Below the pieces are notes generated by a model. The model saw only the letters and a list, made by a program, of their open reading frames with translations. It ran no database searches and was not told the DNA's origin. Shown one piece after another: positions 9,917-33,551 of a stretch of 34,267 nucleotides of DNA. How positions within the stretch are numbered: position 1 is the first letter of the stretch; every line of letters starts with the position of its first letter. This DNA comes from Armatimonadota bacterium (GTDB taxonomy: Bacteria; Armatimonadota; UBA5829), in the NCBI GenBank assembly GCA_026392045.1, contig JAPLCU010000027.1:1-34267 (forward strand). The letters are read 5' to 3'. The translations under genes and the position numbers were made by a program.

Positions 9917-10594
9917 ATGGCAGAACTCAAAACCGGCAATGGTGTGATGATCAAAACCAGAGAGGTCACACCAGAGGATATAAAGTCGGGGTTATATTTT
10001 TTATATTTTGGTGGGCTGGTGGGCAAGGTCGACCGCATCTATGACGATGGCTCCGTATGCATTGAAGTGGACATCGACAGCCTCAGCAAAGAAGCCCGCA
10101 GCAGACATTTGGCAATGCAGGAAGCTGAGCGCAGACGTTGGCTGGAGAATCTTTCGGGCGAGGCTCGCAACAGGCTAACACCTGAACAAAGGCAGCTCAG
10201 AATCAGCTATAAGCTGCTTGTGTCTAAGAAAGATTTGGAGCCTCACAAAGGCTTCGGCATCAGGATACCGAAGCAAATGAGTGGAGAGCAGAGAGTGGAG
10301 AGTGGAGAGCCCGTGCTTCGAGAGCCTCAGCATGGCGAGGTGGAGCCTGCGCATGGCGAGGTGGAGCCTCAGCATGGCGAGGTGGAGCCTCAGCATGGCG
10401 AGGTGGAGCCTCAGCATGGCGAGGTGGAGCCTCAGCATGGCGAGGTGGAGCCTCAGCATGGCGAGGTGGAGCCTGCGCATGGGGAAGCGGGGAAGGAAGT
10501 CGATAACGAAGAAGAGCCCATAAAAAGGCCCACCGAGGCAGATTTAGAAGCCAGGGAAGAAGAATTCCTGAAATCACTGCAAGAAAAACAGTAA
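9917..10594 (+). CDS. Hypothetical protein with eight tandem heptapeptides
   Basis: I do not recognise the family. The 225-residue protein starts with an ideal AGGAGG site. Residues 1-60 are a short β-rich stretch (GNGVMIKTREVTPEDIKSG, then YFLYFGGLVGKVDRIYDDGS) that could be an SH3/KOW-like barrel. Residues 60-115 are charged and helical. Residues 136-191 are eight copies of E-P-Q/A-H-G-E-V, encoded by a 21-bp tandem repeat (10322-10489). The C-terminus is an acidic/basic helix ending LKSLQEKQ. No signal peptide or membrane segment is seen. The codons just before the array (GAGAGTGGAGAGCCCGTGCT region) are also low-complexity. The conserved head suggests a real gene whose linker has expanded. 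Confidence 0.65.
   Translation: MAELKTGNGVMIKTREVTPEDIKSGLYFLYFGGLVGKVDRIYDDGSVCIEVDIDSLSKEARSRHLAMQEAERRRWLENLSGEARNRLTPEQRQLRISYKLLVSKKDLEPHKGFGIRIPKQMSGEQRVESGEPVLREPQHGEVEPAHGEVEPQHGEVEPQHGEVEPQHGEVEPQHGEVEPQHGEVEPAHGEAGKEVDNEEEPIKRPTEADLEAREEEFLKSLQEKQ
10322..10489 (+). repeat. 21-bp tandem repeat, eight units, in frame
   Basis: The unit is GAGCCTCAGCATGGCGAGGT plus G. Units 1 and 3-7 are identical at the protein level; units 2 and 8 have GCG (Ala) for CAG (Gln), and unit 8 ends GGGGAAGCG. The sequence leading in, CTTCGAGAGCCTCAGCATGG, closely resembles the dispersed intergenic element at 22644 and 27592 (CTTCGAGAGCCTCAGGATGG). The repeat is open in several frames on both strands. Confidence 0.95.
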
Positions 10595-15806: not shown

Positions 15807-17834
15807 ATGGTTCACACGATATCGACAAAACAACTTGCCGCCATACTTGCGCATTTTGCAGGCGAAATAAGAGAAATCGACAGTGATTTCGTCGCCCAGA
15901 CGGCCGCTTATGGCTTGTTTCTCTCGCGACTTCAGAACAACGATTTGAAGTATTGCGATATGATCAACAATGCATCGGATAATGAGCTTGTCACGCGAAC
16001 TAAGCAAATGCTCAGTGAGATTGAGCTTGATAAGGTTTTCGAGCAATACTTGGCGCAGGGCAAGAACCCGGCGATTTATTTCTATGAGGAATTCTTGAGG
16101 GCGTATGATGCCAAGGCAGCGAAGGGCCGTGGAGTGCATTACAGCCCGCCGGCAGTTGTCGATTATATGCTCAGAGGCATTGGGGCTATTCTTCAGGAGC
16201 AATTCGGAGAGACGGCTAAGAATGCTGTTTTGCTGGACCCTTGCTGCGGGATCGGGACTTTTCTGCAGCGCCGGGATGCCGCCGCCCTACCCTATCGCCG
16301 AGCCATTGGGATGGAGATTTCCGCTCCTGCCGCTGCATTGGCGGCAAAGCTTTGCAATTGCGATATATTCAACTCCGATAGCCTGCAAGAAACAGACTTA
16401 CAACTGAATGGCGCACCGTTGGTCGTGCTTGGGAATCCGCCATACTCCGGCCACTCGGCAAACGCGGGCGCGATAGCCGATCTGATGGCGGATTACAAGG
16501 TTGGCCTCGATGAACGCAACCCGAAGTGGCTGCAGGATGATTATGTGAAGTTCATCAGAATGGCGCAGCATAGAGTCGAGCAAGCTGGCTGCGGGATCGT
16601 GGCATTCATCACAAACCACAGCTATCTGTTCAATCCAACATTCAGAGCCATGCGCTCCAGTCTGATGAATAGCTTTGATCAAGTTTATGCCTTAAACCTA
16701 TACGGAAACAGCAAGACGCATCAGGAATCCGAGTGTCTGGATGAGAACATATTTCCTATCCAAATGGGGGTCGCCATAGCGTTTTTTGTAAAGACATCAA
16801 ATTCGTCAGAATGCAAAGTTATGCATTCCGGAATCAGGGGGACGCGTGAAGAAAAGCTCAGCAAACTGGCAGAATTGGGCTTCCACAGCACACCATGGGA
16901 GGAAGTGAACCCAGCCAAGCCTTTCAGCGTGTTCATACCATCGAACGCAGATCTGCAGCGTGAATTCTATGGGTTCGCATCGCTGTTCGATATTTTTCAC
17001 GAGCACAGCGTTGGGTTTGTGACCTCTCGCGATTCGTTTGCTGTGGACAGAGATCGAGGCGCGCTAACCGAGCGCATCGCAGCGCTTAGAAACCCCAATT
17101 TTAGCGCAGATGAGATCAGGGCGCGGTATCGAGTCTCTGATCTGGATATAGAAAAGGCCCGTAAAGCGCTGCTTGCAGACCCGATTTGGGAAGAGAAAAT
17201 CATCGAAGTTCTTTACAGGCCTTTCGACACGCGCTGGGCGTATTATTCGGGGTTGGTGATGGAACGGCCGCGCCTGCCGTTTATGAAGAATCTTATGCAT
17301 GAGAACCTCGCGCTGGCGATCGGGCGCGCCGGACAGGTGACGGGATCAGATACCTGGGACGTTGCTTTCATTACAGATAAGCCGACAGACCTTAATTTAT
17401 TTCGCCGTGGAGGGGCTATGCTCTTTCCGTTGCACAGCCTTGCTAGAGTTAACACAGAATTCTTATACTATATATACGCCATTCTATTCAGCAACATCTA
17501 CAGAAATCGATACGCTGATTTCCTGAAAATGGATTATCCGCGCGTTCCATTGATACCTGATAATCCGCTATTCCGATCACTCTCTGAACTCGGTGAAGAA
17601 CTGGCGAATGTTCATCTGATGCGCTCCAATCTTTCCACCACGGCAATGATTGATGATATTTCACTGCGCATAGGCGGTTGGGAAATCCCCGGCAAGTATC
17701 TCAAAGACCGCAGAGGAGAAGAACTTATCGCAGAAGAATACAATCATCTTAATCGCATTCGAGAGGCGGCGGCAAGGACTATTGAGCTGCAGGATAGAAT
17801 AGATGCGTTAATATCCACGAATGTGCCCTGGTGA
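15807..17834 (+). CDS. Orphan adenine-specific DNA methyltransferase, type ISP-like
   Basis: An N6-adenine DNA methylase of 675 residues. After a helical N-terminal region (with ..GRGVHYSPPAVVDYMLRG..), motif I is DPCCGIGTFL (residues 144-153) for S-adenosylmethionine and motif IV is NPPYSG (from residue 210) for catalysis. The second half, with VTSRDSFAVDRDRGALTERI, IIEVLYRPFDTRWAYYSGL and ..ENLALAIGRAGQVTG.., resembles the target-recognition region of type ISP enzymes such as LlaBIII. In those, an N-terminal nuclease and helicase are fused; both are absent here, and no restriction gene adjoins. It could be an orphan regulator of gene expression, or the remaining part of a restriction or phage-defence system. 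Divergent from rubrerythrin; leaderless start likely. Confidence 0.82.
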   Translation: MVHTISTKQLAAILAHFAGEIREIDSDFVAQTAAYGLFLSRLQNNDLKYCDMINNASDNELVTRTKQMLSEIELDKVFEQYLAQGKNPAIYFYEEFLRAYDAKAAKGRGVHYSPPAVVDYMLRGIGAILQEQFGETAKNAVLLDPCCGIGTFLQRRDAAALPYRRAIGMEISAPAAALAAKLCNCDIFNSDSLQETDLQLNGAPLVVLGNPPYSGHSANAGAIADLMADYKVGLDERNPKWLQDDYVKFIRMAQHRVEQAGCGIVAFITNHSYLFNPTFRAMRSSLMNSFDQVYALNLYGNSKTHQESECLDENIFPIQMGVAIAFFVKTSNSSECKVMHSGIRGTREEKLSKLAELGFHSTPWEEVNPAKPFSVFIPSNADLQREFYGFASLFDIFHEHSVGFVTSRDSFAVDRDRGALTERIAALRNPNFSADEIRARYRVSDLDIEKARKALLADPIWEEKIIEVLYRPFDTRWAYYSGLVMERPRLPFMKNLMHENLALAIGRAGQVTGSDTWDVAFITDKPTDLNLFRRGGAMLFPLHSLARVNTEFLYYIYAILFSNIYRNRYADFLKMDYPRVPLIPDNPLFRSLSELGEELANVHLMRSNLSTTAMIDDISLRIGGWEIPGKYLKDRRGEELIAEEYNHLNRIREAAARTIELQDRIDALISTNVPW

Positions 17835-20707: not shown

Positions 20708-20775
20708 TATCGGGAAACCCCTTTCCCGATACCGACACATGCGCGAGGAGGATTTCGGGAAAAGGGTTTCCGAAA
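20708..20775. repeat. Two TTTCGGGAAA-family palindromes side by side
   Basis: Copy 20708-20731 is TATCGGGAAA, CCCC, TTTCCCGATA, with matched changes in both arms, which keeps the stem paired. Copy 20753-20775 is TTTCGGGAAA, AGGG, TTTCCGAAA, with one arm base lost. Compensatory change suggests the stem itself is maintained. Confidence 0.75.
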
Positions 20776-20788
20776 TAACTGTAATATA

Positions 20789-20817: not shown

Positions 20818-20895
20818 CAACTAAGTAATCTGAGAAATCAGCAACAAACGGGATTCCTAAATCTTATATGGGTTATCTCGGATTAAGGAGATATG

Positions 20896-21864
20896 ATGAA
20901 AAGAACAATTGTCATAACAACGGTGGCCGCCCTTGCGCTTATCGGCTTGTTGGGCTTTGCGGTCCCCATTGTCATGAACTCGCTTAAGAAGGACGGAGAG
21001 GCGGTAGTCGCGGCGAAGTTGCCCTCGAATCCGATTCCGGAGAAGGATATGATCAGCATCCCCGCCGGAACTTTTCTTATGGGGAACTCAGGCATTGGCG
21101 ATGATGCTACTGATTCCAACCTTTCCGCGGAACTCCCGCAGCATTCCGTCTATCTCTCCGCCTACTCGATAGGCAAGTATGAGGTGACGCGCGGGCAATA
21201 CCGGAAGTTCATGGAAGCAGGCGGGTATTCCACCAAGGCATACTGGTCGGACGAAGGCTGGCAATGGAAAGAGACGGAGAAACGCGTGGAGCCTAGCGAC
21301 TGGGCACCCGAGGATTGGGGATCTGGTCAGCCGTTCACTCAGACCGATAACCACCCTGTAGTAGGTGTGACCTACTATGAGGCTGAAGCATTCTGCAATT
21401 GGGCTGGAGGTCATCTGCCCACAGAGGCTCAGTGGGAGAAAGCAGCCAGGTGGGATGCAGCCACGAGTCACCCGAACGTCTATCCTTGGGGTGATGTTTG
21501 GGACGCCGAAAAATGCAACAACCTGGATGACCACAACTCCGCCGGCGGGGGCTACGGGGCGGGCCAGGCTGCACCCGTGGGCAGTTATCCGTCTGATGCA
21601 AGTCCTTCCGGCTGCCAGGACATGGCTGGCAATGTGGAGGAGTGGTGCAAGGACTGGTATCAGAACACTTATTATTCTCAAAGCCCTACAAGCGACCCAC
21701 AGGGGCCTGCGACCGGGGGCTATCGTGTCCTGCGGGGCGGTAGTTGGGGCTCCACCATCTCCACCTTCTACCTCAACATCTTCTACGACCTCCGATGCGC
21801 TTACCGCTCCTGCGACACCCCGAACTACTATGACGTCGACTTCGGGTTCCGCCTAGCCCGCTAG
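20896..21864 (+). CDS. Membrane-anchored FGE-sulfatase-domain protein with DGR-like variable tail
   Basis: A protein of 322 residues with the C-type-lectin-like fold of formylglycine-generating enzymes. AAGGAG lies five bases before the ATG at 20896 (two from that at 20893). Residues 4-27 form a hydrophobic anchor or uncleaved signal, so the domain faces outward. FGE motifs: MISIPAGTFLMGN, IGKYEVTRGQYRKFMEAGGY, HPVVGVTYYEAEAFCNWAGG, LPTEAQWEKAARW, YPWGD, GCQDMAGNVEEWCKDWY, YRVLRGGSW and a final GFRLAR. The segment between GGSW and GFR has almost only NNC codons, the mark of a diversity-generating retroelement target (see separate entry). It is thus more likely a variable ligand-binding protein than an enzyme. 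It has its own promoter and a downstream hairpin; no reverse transcriptase is in the window. Confidence 0.88.
   Translation: MKRTIVITTVAALALIGLLGFAVPIVMNSLKKDGEAVVAAKLPSNPIPEKDMISIPAGTFLMGNSGIGDDATDSNLSAELPQHSVYLSAYSIGKYEVTRGQYRKFMEAGGYSTKAYWSDEGWQWKETEKRVEPSDWAPEDWGSGQPFTQTDNHPVVGVTYYEAEAFCNWAGGHLPTEAQWEKAARWDAATSHPNVYPWGDVWDAEKCNNLDDHNSAGGGYGAGQAAPVGSYPSDASPSGCQDMAGNVEEWCKDWYQNTYYSQSPTSDPQGPATGGYRVLRGGSWGSTISTFYLNIFYDLRCAYRSCDTPNYYDVDFGFRLAR
21748..21852 (+). other. Candidate DGR variable region (VR)
   Basis: In the 32 codons 21748-21843, 28 end in C (exceptions CGA, GCT, CCG, TAT), while first and second positions carry all four bases. Codons just upstream, such as CGG GGC GGT AGT TGG, do not show this. 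In known DGRs, AAC codons of a template are rewritten at adenines, giving NNC codons. The invariant residues (LRCA-R and GFR) sit where typical VRs keep them, so the template would plausibly read as N-rich with LRCANR and GFR. Confidence 0.75.
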
Positions 21865-21906
21865 TCTTGCCCTTTTCTCTTTTACTCTCTTACCCTTTAC
21901 GGGGGT

Positions 21907-21937
21907 CCAGGGGCTTTCGCCCCTGGGCGATTTTTTT
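21907..21937 (+). terminator. Hairpin with T-run after the FGE-like gene
   Basis: CCAGGGGC / TTTC / GCCCCTGG (21907-21926), then GCGA and seven T. It is a textbook rho-independent terminator, but it also sits where DGR variable regions carry a stem-loop needed for retargeting. A pyrimidine-rich run (CCCTTTTCTCTTTTACTCTC) lies between stop and stem. Confidence 0.75.
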
Positions 21938-31703: not shown

Positions 31704-33551
31704 ATGCTGCTAAAGAAGCTTACTCTGAAAAATTTTCGTTGTTACGACGAGTTCGCGTTGCCAGTGGATGGTAGACTGTCCATCTTAATAGGGGAGAATG
31801 ACTGTGGTAAGTCGGTAATCCTGGATGCAATACACGCTCTATTGTCCCCACAAGGTTGTCGCGATCAGGATGTTAGGATTACTCCAAAACAAAAGCGCGC
31901 AGAACCGAGTTGTATCACGGGCGAGTTCGTTGTTGAAAGTCATGATGCGCTTCCAGAGGAATACCGAAGCGGAGATAACGGCAATATGTTTGTTATCAGG
32001 CGATCATTCGAAAAGAATGCTGCAAAGACCTTTGTAGTTGGATACAGCTACAGTGACACCCGGTTTGACGATAGCAATTTCAAAGGAGCGGATATCCAAA
32101 AGAACCTGCTAAAGGAATATGGACTCAAGCCTGCTGGTAAAGAACTGGACAGGAGAGCGCAACGAACTGAGCTAATCAATCAGAAGAAACTAACCCAGAC
32201 GAGGGCAGAGATAGAACTGCCAAGCTGGAACGCCGTAATGCCATATTTACCACGCACTGAGCGAATCGACTCAACCGAGTATCGCCATCCTGACGCGATG
32301 ATACAACGGGCACTCCAGTCGGTTGTGTCTAATGTCATCACTCCAATAGATCCGAAAACCGGTGAGCCCAGAGAACTCGCCAGCCTGCGCACTGTGCGAA
32401 GAAAACTAAAGGAACGATTGGATCAGGAAATCAGTAAGGCCAAGACCACTCTTCAAGTCAGCCACCAACGACTTCGTAACCTGTCCATAGAACCAAATAT
32501 CGACTTCTCGCGCTGCTTGACAACTGGCAATATCGCGATAGATATCGGCGCTGGCACCCATCTTATAGAATCTTATGGCGAGGGTACAAAAAAGCGAATA
32601 TGGATGGGCTTGCTGGAGTGGGAAAGAGAAACAAGCGGCAATTTCGCCCAATCAGTAGTCCGTTTGTATGACGAACCCGACGTCAATCTCCACTATGAAG
32701 CACAGAGAGAGCTTTTCAAAACTATTTTTGGGCTGACAGCCAACGATGAACTCAAAATGCAGTGCTTTGTCTGCACTCATTCAGTATTTCTTATCGATCG
32801 GGCACCGCTGAATGCCATAAATTTGATAAAGATGAAAGATGAATCCAGACGCAGTCTGACAAGAGTAGCCACACCAGAGACCGGCAGCATTGTCGGATTC
32901 TTAAACGATATCGGCAAATCAGTCGGACTGACAAATACAACTCTGCTGTACGAGAGGGCATTTTTGTCAGTAGAAGGGGAAAGCGAGGAAGCCTCAATTC
33001 CTATTATCTACACTGAGCTATACGGCACGACAATGGCGGAAGACGGCATCGTACTCATCAATCTTCATAGTTGTAGTGCTTGGAAATCGATTTTGGAGCT
33101 TCTTTTGAGGAACCGAATTGCCGTAACCTACATGCTGTTAGACAATGACTGCCGTGACATCAATTCATCAGCTCGCTTAACTAAGCAAGAGTTGTCGACC
33201 ATCGGATGTAGCGCGGACTATCTCAGCAATAACGTGACATTCATTGGCACAAAAGAATACGAAGATGCGTTCTCCGATGCCGCAATCTGCACTGCTCTGA
33301 ACAACCACTACCCTTTGGAGAACGGCGATTGCTGGTTACCATCCGACATTGCTACTTTGCGCCTGAAAAGCACAAAGTTCTCAGATGACCTGCGCAATGA
33401 AATCAGATCAAGATGCATAATAAGGCAGCGGAATAATACAAGAAAACCAGAGATCGCACGCGCAATTGCCGCGTCCATGGGGCGCGCAGATGTACCCGAA
33501 GACTTGCGCAAGGCACTATCGAAGGTACGTCGTTTGGCTGGATACCCATAG
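31704..33551 (+). CDS. OLD-family ATP-dependent endonuclease (AAA-TOPRIM)
   Basis: A 615-residue protein with an ABC/SMC-type ATPase N-terminus and a TOPRIM C-terminus, the architecture of OLD nucleases used in phage defence. Walker A is GENDCGKS (30-37) after LKKLTLKNFRCYDEF. A signature-like SYGEGTKKRIWMGLLEW precedes Walker B, RLYDEPDVNLH (Asp323-Glu324), and FVCTHSVFLIDRAP holds the switch His. The TOPRIM metal motifs are SVEGESEE (Glu424) and LLDNDCRD (Asp480, Asp482). No UvrD-like helicase (GajB) or reverse transcriptase is beside it, so it is a class 1 or stand-alone type, paired with the small upstream gene. No ribosome site directly precedes its ATG; coupling is likely. Probable defence function is an inference from the family. 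Confidence 0.85.
   Translation: MLLKKLTLKNFRCYDEFALPVDGRLSILIGENDCGKSVILDAIHALLSPQGCRDQDVRITPKQKRAEPSCITGEFVVESHDALPEEYRSGDNGNMFVIRRSFEKNAAKTFVVGYSYSDTRFDDSNFKGADIQKNLLKEYGLKPAGKELDRRAQRTELINQKKLTQTRAEIELPSWNAVMPYLPRTERIDSTEYRHPDAMIQRALQSVVSNVITPIDPKTGEPRELASLRTVRRKLKERLDQEISKAKTTLQVSHQRLRNLSIEPNIDFSRCLTTGNIAIDIGAGTHLIESYGEGTKKRIWMGLLEWERETSGNFAQSVVRLYDEPDVNLHYEAQRELFKTIFGLTANDELKMQCFVCTHSVFLIDRAPLNAINLIKMKDESRRSLTRVATPETGSIVGFLNDIGKSVGLTNTTLLYERAFLSVEGESEEASIPIIYTELYGTTMAEDGIVLINLHSCSAWKSILELLLRNRIAVTYMLLDNDCRDINSSARLTKQELSTIGCSADYLSNNVTFIGTKEYEDAFSDAAICTALNNHYPLENGDCWLPSDIATLRLKSTKFSDDLRNEIRSRCIIRQRNNTRKPEIARAIAASMGRADVPEDLRKALSKVRRLAGYP

Follow-up and report, generated by a model that had tools for sequence, protein, structure and literature searches.

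We conclude that a run of C-ending codons at the 3' end of an FGE-fold gene in an Armatimonadota genome is very probably the variable region (VR) of a diversity-generating retroelement (DGR) target, rewritten from an AAC-rich template by a cassette located elsewhere; the genome's own cassette most likely lies in an assembly gap. The gene is in the window, by which we mean the entire 34,267-nt stretch of DNA that we analysed. The source genome (G000) is a MAG of 3.55 Mb in 206 contigs that is 98% complete, and one genome was used per species. In the mechanism that we propose, an AAC-rich template RNA would be copied by an error-prone DGR reverse transcriptase (RT), with misincorporation opposite template adenines, and the cDNA would replace the homologous 3' end of the FGE-fold gene. 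AAC codons would thus become NNC codons in the part of an anchored cell-surface protein that presumably forms its exposed binding face. At least 15 genes at scattered loci would have been rewritten in this way, from two templates related to each other, and for this reason we infer that the cassette of RT and template works, or once worked, in trans. The window genome presumably has a template of its own, the one compared here being from another family of the class (genome G027), and the DGR may still be acting on the window VR at present.

The gene and its surroundings contain the following features:

20893-21864, plus strand: target (variable protein) gene with an FGE-sulfatase / C-type-lectin-like domain (PF03781), 323 aa
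20893-20991, plus strand: N-terminal hydrophobic segment, MMKRTIVITTVAALALIGLLGFAVPIVMNSLKK, a putative anchor judged from its sequence and from paralog N-termini
about 21717-21871, plus strand: variable region including its invariant ends, homologous to the G027 template repeat; 23 of 38 template adenines differ, as do 3 of 82 other bases, with one 24-base in-frame length difference
21748-21792, plus strand: first NNC tract, with 15 codons where the G027 and G022 templates have 7
21808-21819, plus strand: second NNC tract, 4 codons
21823-21843, plus strand: third tract, 7 codons, all NNC except a TAT that is also in the G027 template
21844-21871, plus strand: invariant VR end common to the template, GGGTTCCGCCTAGCCCGC-AGTCT-GCC; candidate initiation-of-mutagenic-homing (IMH) region, a role suggested by knowledge of other DGRs
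21907-21926, plus strand: GC-rich hairpin, CCAGGGGC TTTC GCCCCTGG (stem 8 bp, loop 4 bases), followed by a T run; DNA fold z -3.2

Between positions 21748 and 21843, 28 of the 32 in-frame codons end in C, more than in any other stretch of that length when all six reading frames of the window are compared; in the same scan, every 32-codon stretch with at least 24 C-ending codons overlaps this site. Third-position C stands at 32% in the remainder of the gene, such that the binomial chance of 28 or more C-ending codons in 32 is about 8e-11. This confirms the count in a sequence-only reading of the same DNA, which had placed the codons between RGGSW and GFRLAR motifs; both motifs are present. That reading had delimited the VR as 21748-21852, which is the right site, but by homology to the G027 template the region is longer, extending about 7 bases beyond the stop codon. 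The exceptions among the 32 codons are CGA, GCT, CCG and TAT. The last three are at the same places in the G027 template, and the window's CGA is CGC in G027. The stop codon, TAG, is inside the invariant VR end, where the G027 template has AAG.

The G027 template was found by way of its RT rather than by similarity to the VR. Using a DGR-RT profile built from four DGR RTs, we searched the 28 genomes of the class, of which only G022 and G027 gave true DGR RTs. The G027 RT (positions 57-1118 of contig C165, locus L039; E 2e-124) has the motifs GIPIGNLTSQ and YVDD, and an AAC-rich template follows it directly. The window VR differs from this class relative's template almost only at template adenines (p = 9e-12), with 79 of the 82 non-adenine bases matching. 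Hence, the near-identical sequence beside a DGR RT, differing only at A, that the sequence-only reading called for does exist in a relative of the same class, but was not found in the window's own genome. Two other RT matches were rejected as DGR RTs, both with scores far below those of the true ones: a second match in G027 (contig C123), and the sole RT match in the family (G013, L023), which has QGLPVSP instead of the DGR-type IGNLTSQ. The G027 RT also has an in-frame insert, GARASSLASGADEDVRAPG, immediately before its IGNLTSQ motif; this insert belongs to a dispersed family of GGAGCGCGAGCGTCCTCGCTCGC-type repeats, with further copies on the upstream side of the RT and beyond the gene that follows it.

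The same type of template, RGGSWNNNDNNNRCANRNNNNPNNNWNNNGFRIAR, is present in G022, a member of the same class. A pattern scan of GTDB-species contigs with a guessed template core detected templates in seven genomes, one of which, the Armatimonadetes MAG WAS_Bin_18 (L034), is G022. An IGNLTSQ-type DGR RT adjoins the template in four of the seven (L033, L035, L036 and L037), and an Avd-like ORF adjoins the RT of L037. An order-wide scan with the template pattern found none. The RT detected in G022 is part of another DGR, the second type seen in the class (contig C54, L044), with RT, VR gene and its own template in cis on a 3.6-kb contig.

The target protein matches PF03781 as a full-length domain over residues 50-323 (E 9.6e-60). 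A phmmer search with it matched FGE structures and the Treponema denticola variable protein TvpA (2y3c; E 9.5e-12); judged by sequence, the protein has the C-type-lectin/FGE fold, with the VR at its C-terminus. An AlphaFold model made from four input sequences had a pLDDT of 36. In FGE enzymes, the two active-site cysteines are catalytic. The VR occupies the position of these cysteines, and in an alignment to FGE structures both align with non-cysteine residues of the target protein, so it is probably a binding protein rather than an enzyme, like TvpA of T. denticola. Lipobox-like cysteines are found at the N-termini of two paralogs (L002 and L006), at the place of the hydrophobic segment of the target protein, which is predicted to be membrane-anchored by its N-terminus. 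The VR would then be displayed at the cell surface on a putative exposed binding face, where it may bind ligands.

The hairpin that follows the gene has counterparts at the equivalent place after L006, L008, L021 and L007. In known DGR targets, hairpins have GC-rich stems of 7-10 bp and 4-nt loops, and lie 4-34 bp from the VR (PMC3240598). The spacer in the window is about 35 nt, just outside the published range, and the hairpin is also terminator-like; it may be a terminator, a DGR target hairpin or both, and possibly a terminator only. On the other side of the gene, at 20713-20779, there is an inverted repeat, CGGGAAACCCCTTTCCCGAT...ATTTCGGGAAAAGGGTTTCCGAAAT; it looks like a dispersed repeat, since a similar one follows the L005 gene.

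There are about 20 FGE matches in G000, and 15 of the FGE genes (the window gene and 14 sisters, on 12 contigs) have VR-type C-termini, as judged by eye. Ten of these, including the window's, form class A, with the arrangement RGGSW/GW-VR-RCAxR-VR-P-VR-GFRLAR followed by the stop codon. The other five form class B, with the arrangement RGGSF-VR-LQSSxR-VR-GFRVSEVPEPSSII and a tail resembling PEP-CTERM (PF07589, E 0.0008, slightly below the cut-off). Diversity among the G000 paralogs at codon positions 1, 2 and 3 is 0.48, 0.48 and 0.19 in class A VRs vs 0.27, 0.24 and 0.50 in the gene bodies; for class B, the values are 0.43, 0.39 and 0.05 vs 0.14, 0.16 and 0.31. This inversion between VR and gene body is what adenine-directed rewriting of AAC codons predicts. 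Fourteen VRs from G000, G018 and G027 together have 254 NNC codons, the commonest being TAC (53), GGC (30), GAC (30), AAC (25) and AGC (24); C is the rarest first base, and the rarest new first base among outcomes for AAC. The Bordetella DGR RT acting on AAC yields mainly Tyr, Ser and Asp (PMC12875486).

We consider it very improbable that ordinary diversifying selection, gene conversion or local codon bias produced the NNC codons without any retroelement. Such a process would be compatible with the identical VRs of L006 and L021, where VR-to-VR copying or a misjoined assembly may be involved. Nonetheless, the difference from the template is specific to adenines, and that template is beside a DGR RT; third positions are held while first and second positions vary, which is the reverse of normal coding drift; and C is scarce at third positions in the rest of the gene. 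The identical VRs are about 100 bases long (L006 2188-2290 on contig C175; L021 109-213 on contig C180), have diverged flanks and are both near contig ends, and they reflect either copying between VRs or an assembly error. The claim of the sequence-only reading that the window holds the VR of a DGR in an FGE/C-type-lectin protein, diversified from elsewhere, is therefore supported by the G027 template and by the codon signature of the paralogs, with trans action as its more conjectural part.

Some of the sister loci call for separate comment. The class A gene L010 (contig C105) is frameshifted by an extra G in an GGGGGGGG run at 2165-2180, just before its VR, and is either a broken gene or an assembly error. 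A VR-tail fragment lies about 480 bp after the VR gene of L005 (contig C88, 67349-67370), with no gene around it; it is not a template. A match to the class B core on contig C182 (L062) was rejected as a VR gene because it is not in an FGE gene. Lastly, the long tracts of L004 and L020 share a match of 13 bases; its p of 0.007 holds for that pair, one of 66 pairs, and the match is not significant after correction.

Several searches of the 206-contig G000 assembly were made for the cassette. Neither PF00078 (RVT_1), which does detect DGR RTs, nor the DGR-RT profile had a match. There was no AAC-rich template matching CCGCAACAACAACAAC within 1 mismatch, several other template patterns gave only the VR itself or nothing, and the conserved post-template element was not found within 3 mismatches. 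The gene after the G027 template encodes an alpha/beta hydrolase, and a similar gene is there in G022; no homolog of this hydrolase was found in G000, and synteny therefore gave no location for the cassette. The sequence-only reading would have abandoned a DGR if the complete genome had neither an RT nor an A-rich template and population reads showed no allelic diversity at the site. The first half of this holds for the 206-contig assembly, but a MAG is not a complete genome.

An assembly gap is the likelier cause of the cassette's absence, because this template adjoins a contig break in each of the two relatives possessing it. Only 57 bp separate the start of the G027 RT from a contig end. 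The template contig of G022 starts some 70 bp ahead of the template's GFR end region and only about 100 bp ahead of the template end, so that the contig start falls within or just before the template and the RT side is cut off. If both breaks were combined, the RT would be left on a contig of roughly 1.3 kb, shorter than those usually binned. We think that the cassette of the window genome is most likely in such a gap, with loss of the RT as the alternative. Three further genomes, G005, G017 and G018, are 95-100% complete and have VR-type genes, and the DGR-RT profile found no DGR RT in any of them. The explanation thus needs a locus that is hard to assemble, since chance loss from four assemblies would otherwise be awkward.

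It is possible, although we think it the less probable course of events, that the cassette was lost from the window lineage, and from G005, G017 and G018, leaving VRs that are frozen products of past rounds and are now drifting. RT and template are missing from four VR-gene assemblies that are 95-100% complete; three G000 VRs (L003, L005 and L009) have decayed, with 20, 17 and 15 non-A differences, respectively, which shows that some targets are out of use, and the L010 gene is frameshifted; and T. denticola strains with target genes but without the core DGR are known (PMC4891356). By contrast, the window VR and that of L006 have just 3 and 5 non-A differences in 82 from a template of another family, whereas gene bodies vary at about half of their third positions among paralogs, which argues that VR rewriting is recent on the time scale of the gene bodies.

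We regard it as unlikely that the RT and template are on an unbinned plasmid, phage or other mobile element that serves several hosts of the class in trans. Its absence from several near-complete bins and the strong conservation of the template sequence between families speak for such an element. The contig of the G027 cassette, however, is 28.7 kb long, includes transporter and glycosyltransferase genes and looks chromosomal; the G027 RT has no close relative in viral contigs (best 29-37% identity), plasmid RTs reach at most 44% among the best matches listed, and the FGE protein has no close relative in viral contigs. No class A template was found in viral contigs, and the seven matches there to the class B VR core were rejected as chance matches in unrelated frames.

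Returning to the DGR that we favour, the VRs have changed in length as well as in sequence. The first tract has 15 codons in the window vs 7 in known templates, 12 in L002 and 13 in L073 (G018); in class B, L020 has about 14 vs 6-7. On contig C54 of G022, where RT, template and VR are together, the VR has 8 codons vs 5 in the template in the first tract, and 5 vs 4 in the second. All length changes are of whole codons and are restricted to AAC tracts, and the G027 template has no NNC-tract expansion. Slippage by threes on AAC repeats has already been proposed, as stated in PMC12875486 with reference to Wu et al. 2018. The whole-codon changes are natural support for that proposal, and no new mechanism is involved.

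One of the closest likenesses is to the TvpA-type DGR of T. denticola, whose FGE-sulfatase-fold targets, many with lipoprotein signals, number up to seven, are scattered far from one RT/template, and have VRs that differ from the template mostly at adenines (PMC4891356). Both systems have scattered FGE lipoprotein targets, and some T. denticola strains, like the G000 assembly, have targets without RT and template. G000 differs in belonging to another phylum, in having 15 targets, in having two template classes (one on PEP-CTERM-like proteins) and long in-frame tract expansions, and in that the question of loss or gap concerns a MAG. Thiohalocapsa PB-PSB1 also has FGE/C-type-lectin targets, and some have been argued to be diversified in trans by RTs and templates elsewhere in the genome (PMC10907252); there, however, the RTs are in the genome, activity is seen in metagenomic data, and the FGE targets are fused to putative conflict-system domains, whereas the window protein is probably a simple anchored protein and the cassette is absent from the G000 assembly. 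The prototype, the Bordetella phage BPP-1 DGR (PMC3240598, PMC12875486), shares adenine-directed rewriting of AAC codons, a C-type-lectin gene that has its VR at the 3' end and a GC-rich hairpin after the VR, but its cassette is in cis beside a single target, in a phage. Apart from adenines, the template of the G027 DGR (L039) is almost the same as the window VR; this DGR differs in having RT and template present, in its family and in the unexpanded tracts of its template. Scattered FGE targets served by one cassette, and targets without an RT, have therefore been described before in T. denticola, and trans action has been argued for Thiohalocapsa PB-PSB1 as well; what is added here is two template classes, strong variation in loop length and a number of targets that exceeds the number in those strains of T. 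denticola.

Elsewhere in the window, PQHGEVE-type repeats are arrayed in tandem in the C-terminal half of the ORF at 9917-10594. Two possible defence genes are those at 15807-17834, for a Type ISP restriction-modification-like protein (Type_ISP_C, N6_Mtase), and at 31704-33551, for an OLD-like AAA ATPase with a TOPRIM domain.

RT-based surveys of DGRs in MAGs can miss lineages in which the cassette is in an assembly gap. The 15 VRs with their two template classes form a set for measuring the spread, decay and loop-length change of DGR repertoires. More speculatively, and in our view improbably, a trans DGR network may extend across the whole class in Armatimonadota; its genomes would keep up to 15 targets with no resident RT, and an RT on another replicon or in another cell lineage, or VR-to-VR copying as the identical VRs of L006 and L021 may reflect, would supply diversity. 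Through the AAC-repeat templates, loops would also gain or lose whole codons (from 7 to 15 in the window gene, from 5 to 8 in the G022 cis pair). Our findings place a many-target DGR, with a cassette that would act in trans, in Armatimonadota; in the literature that we searched, only one paper names DGRs and Armatimonadetes together.
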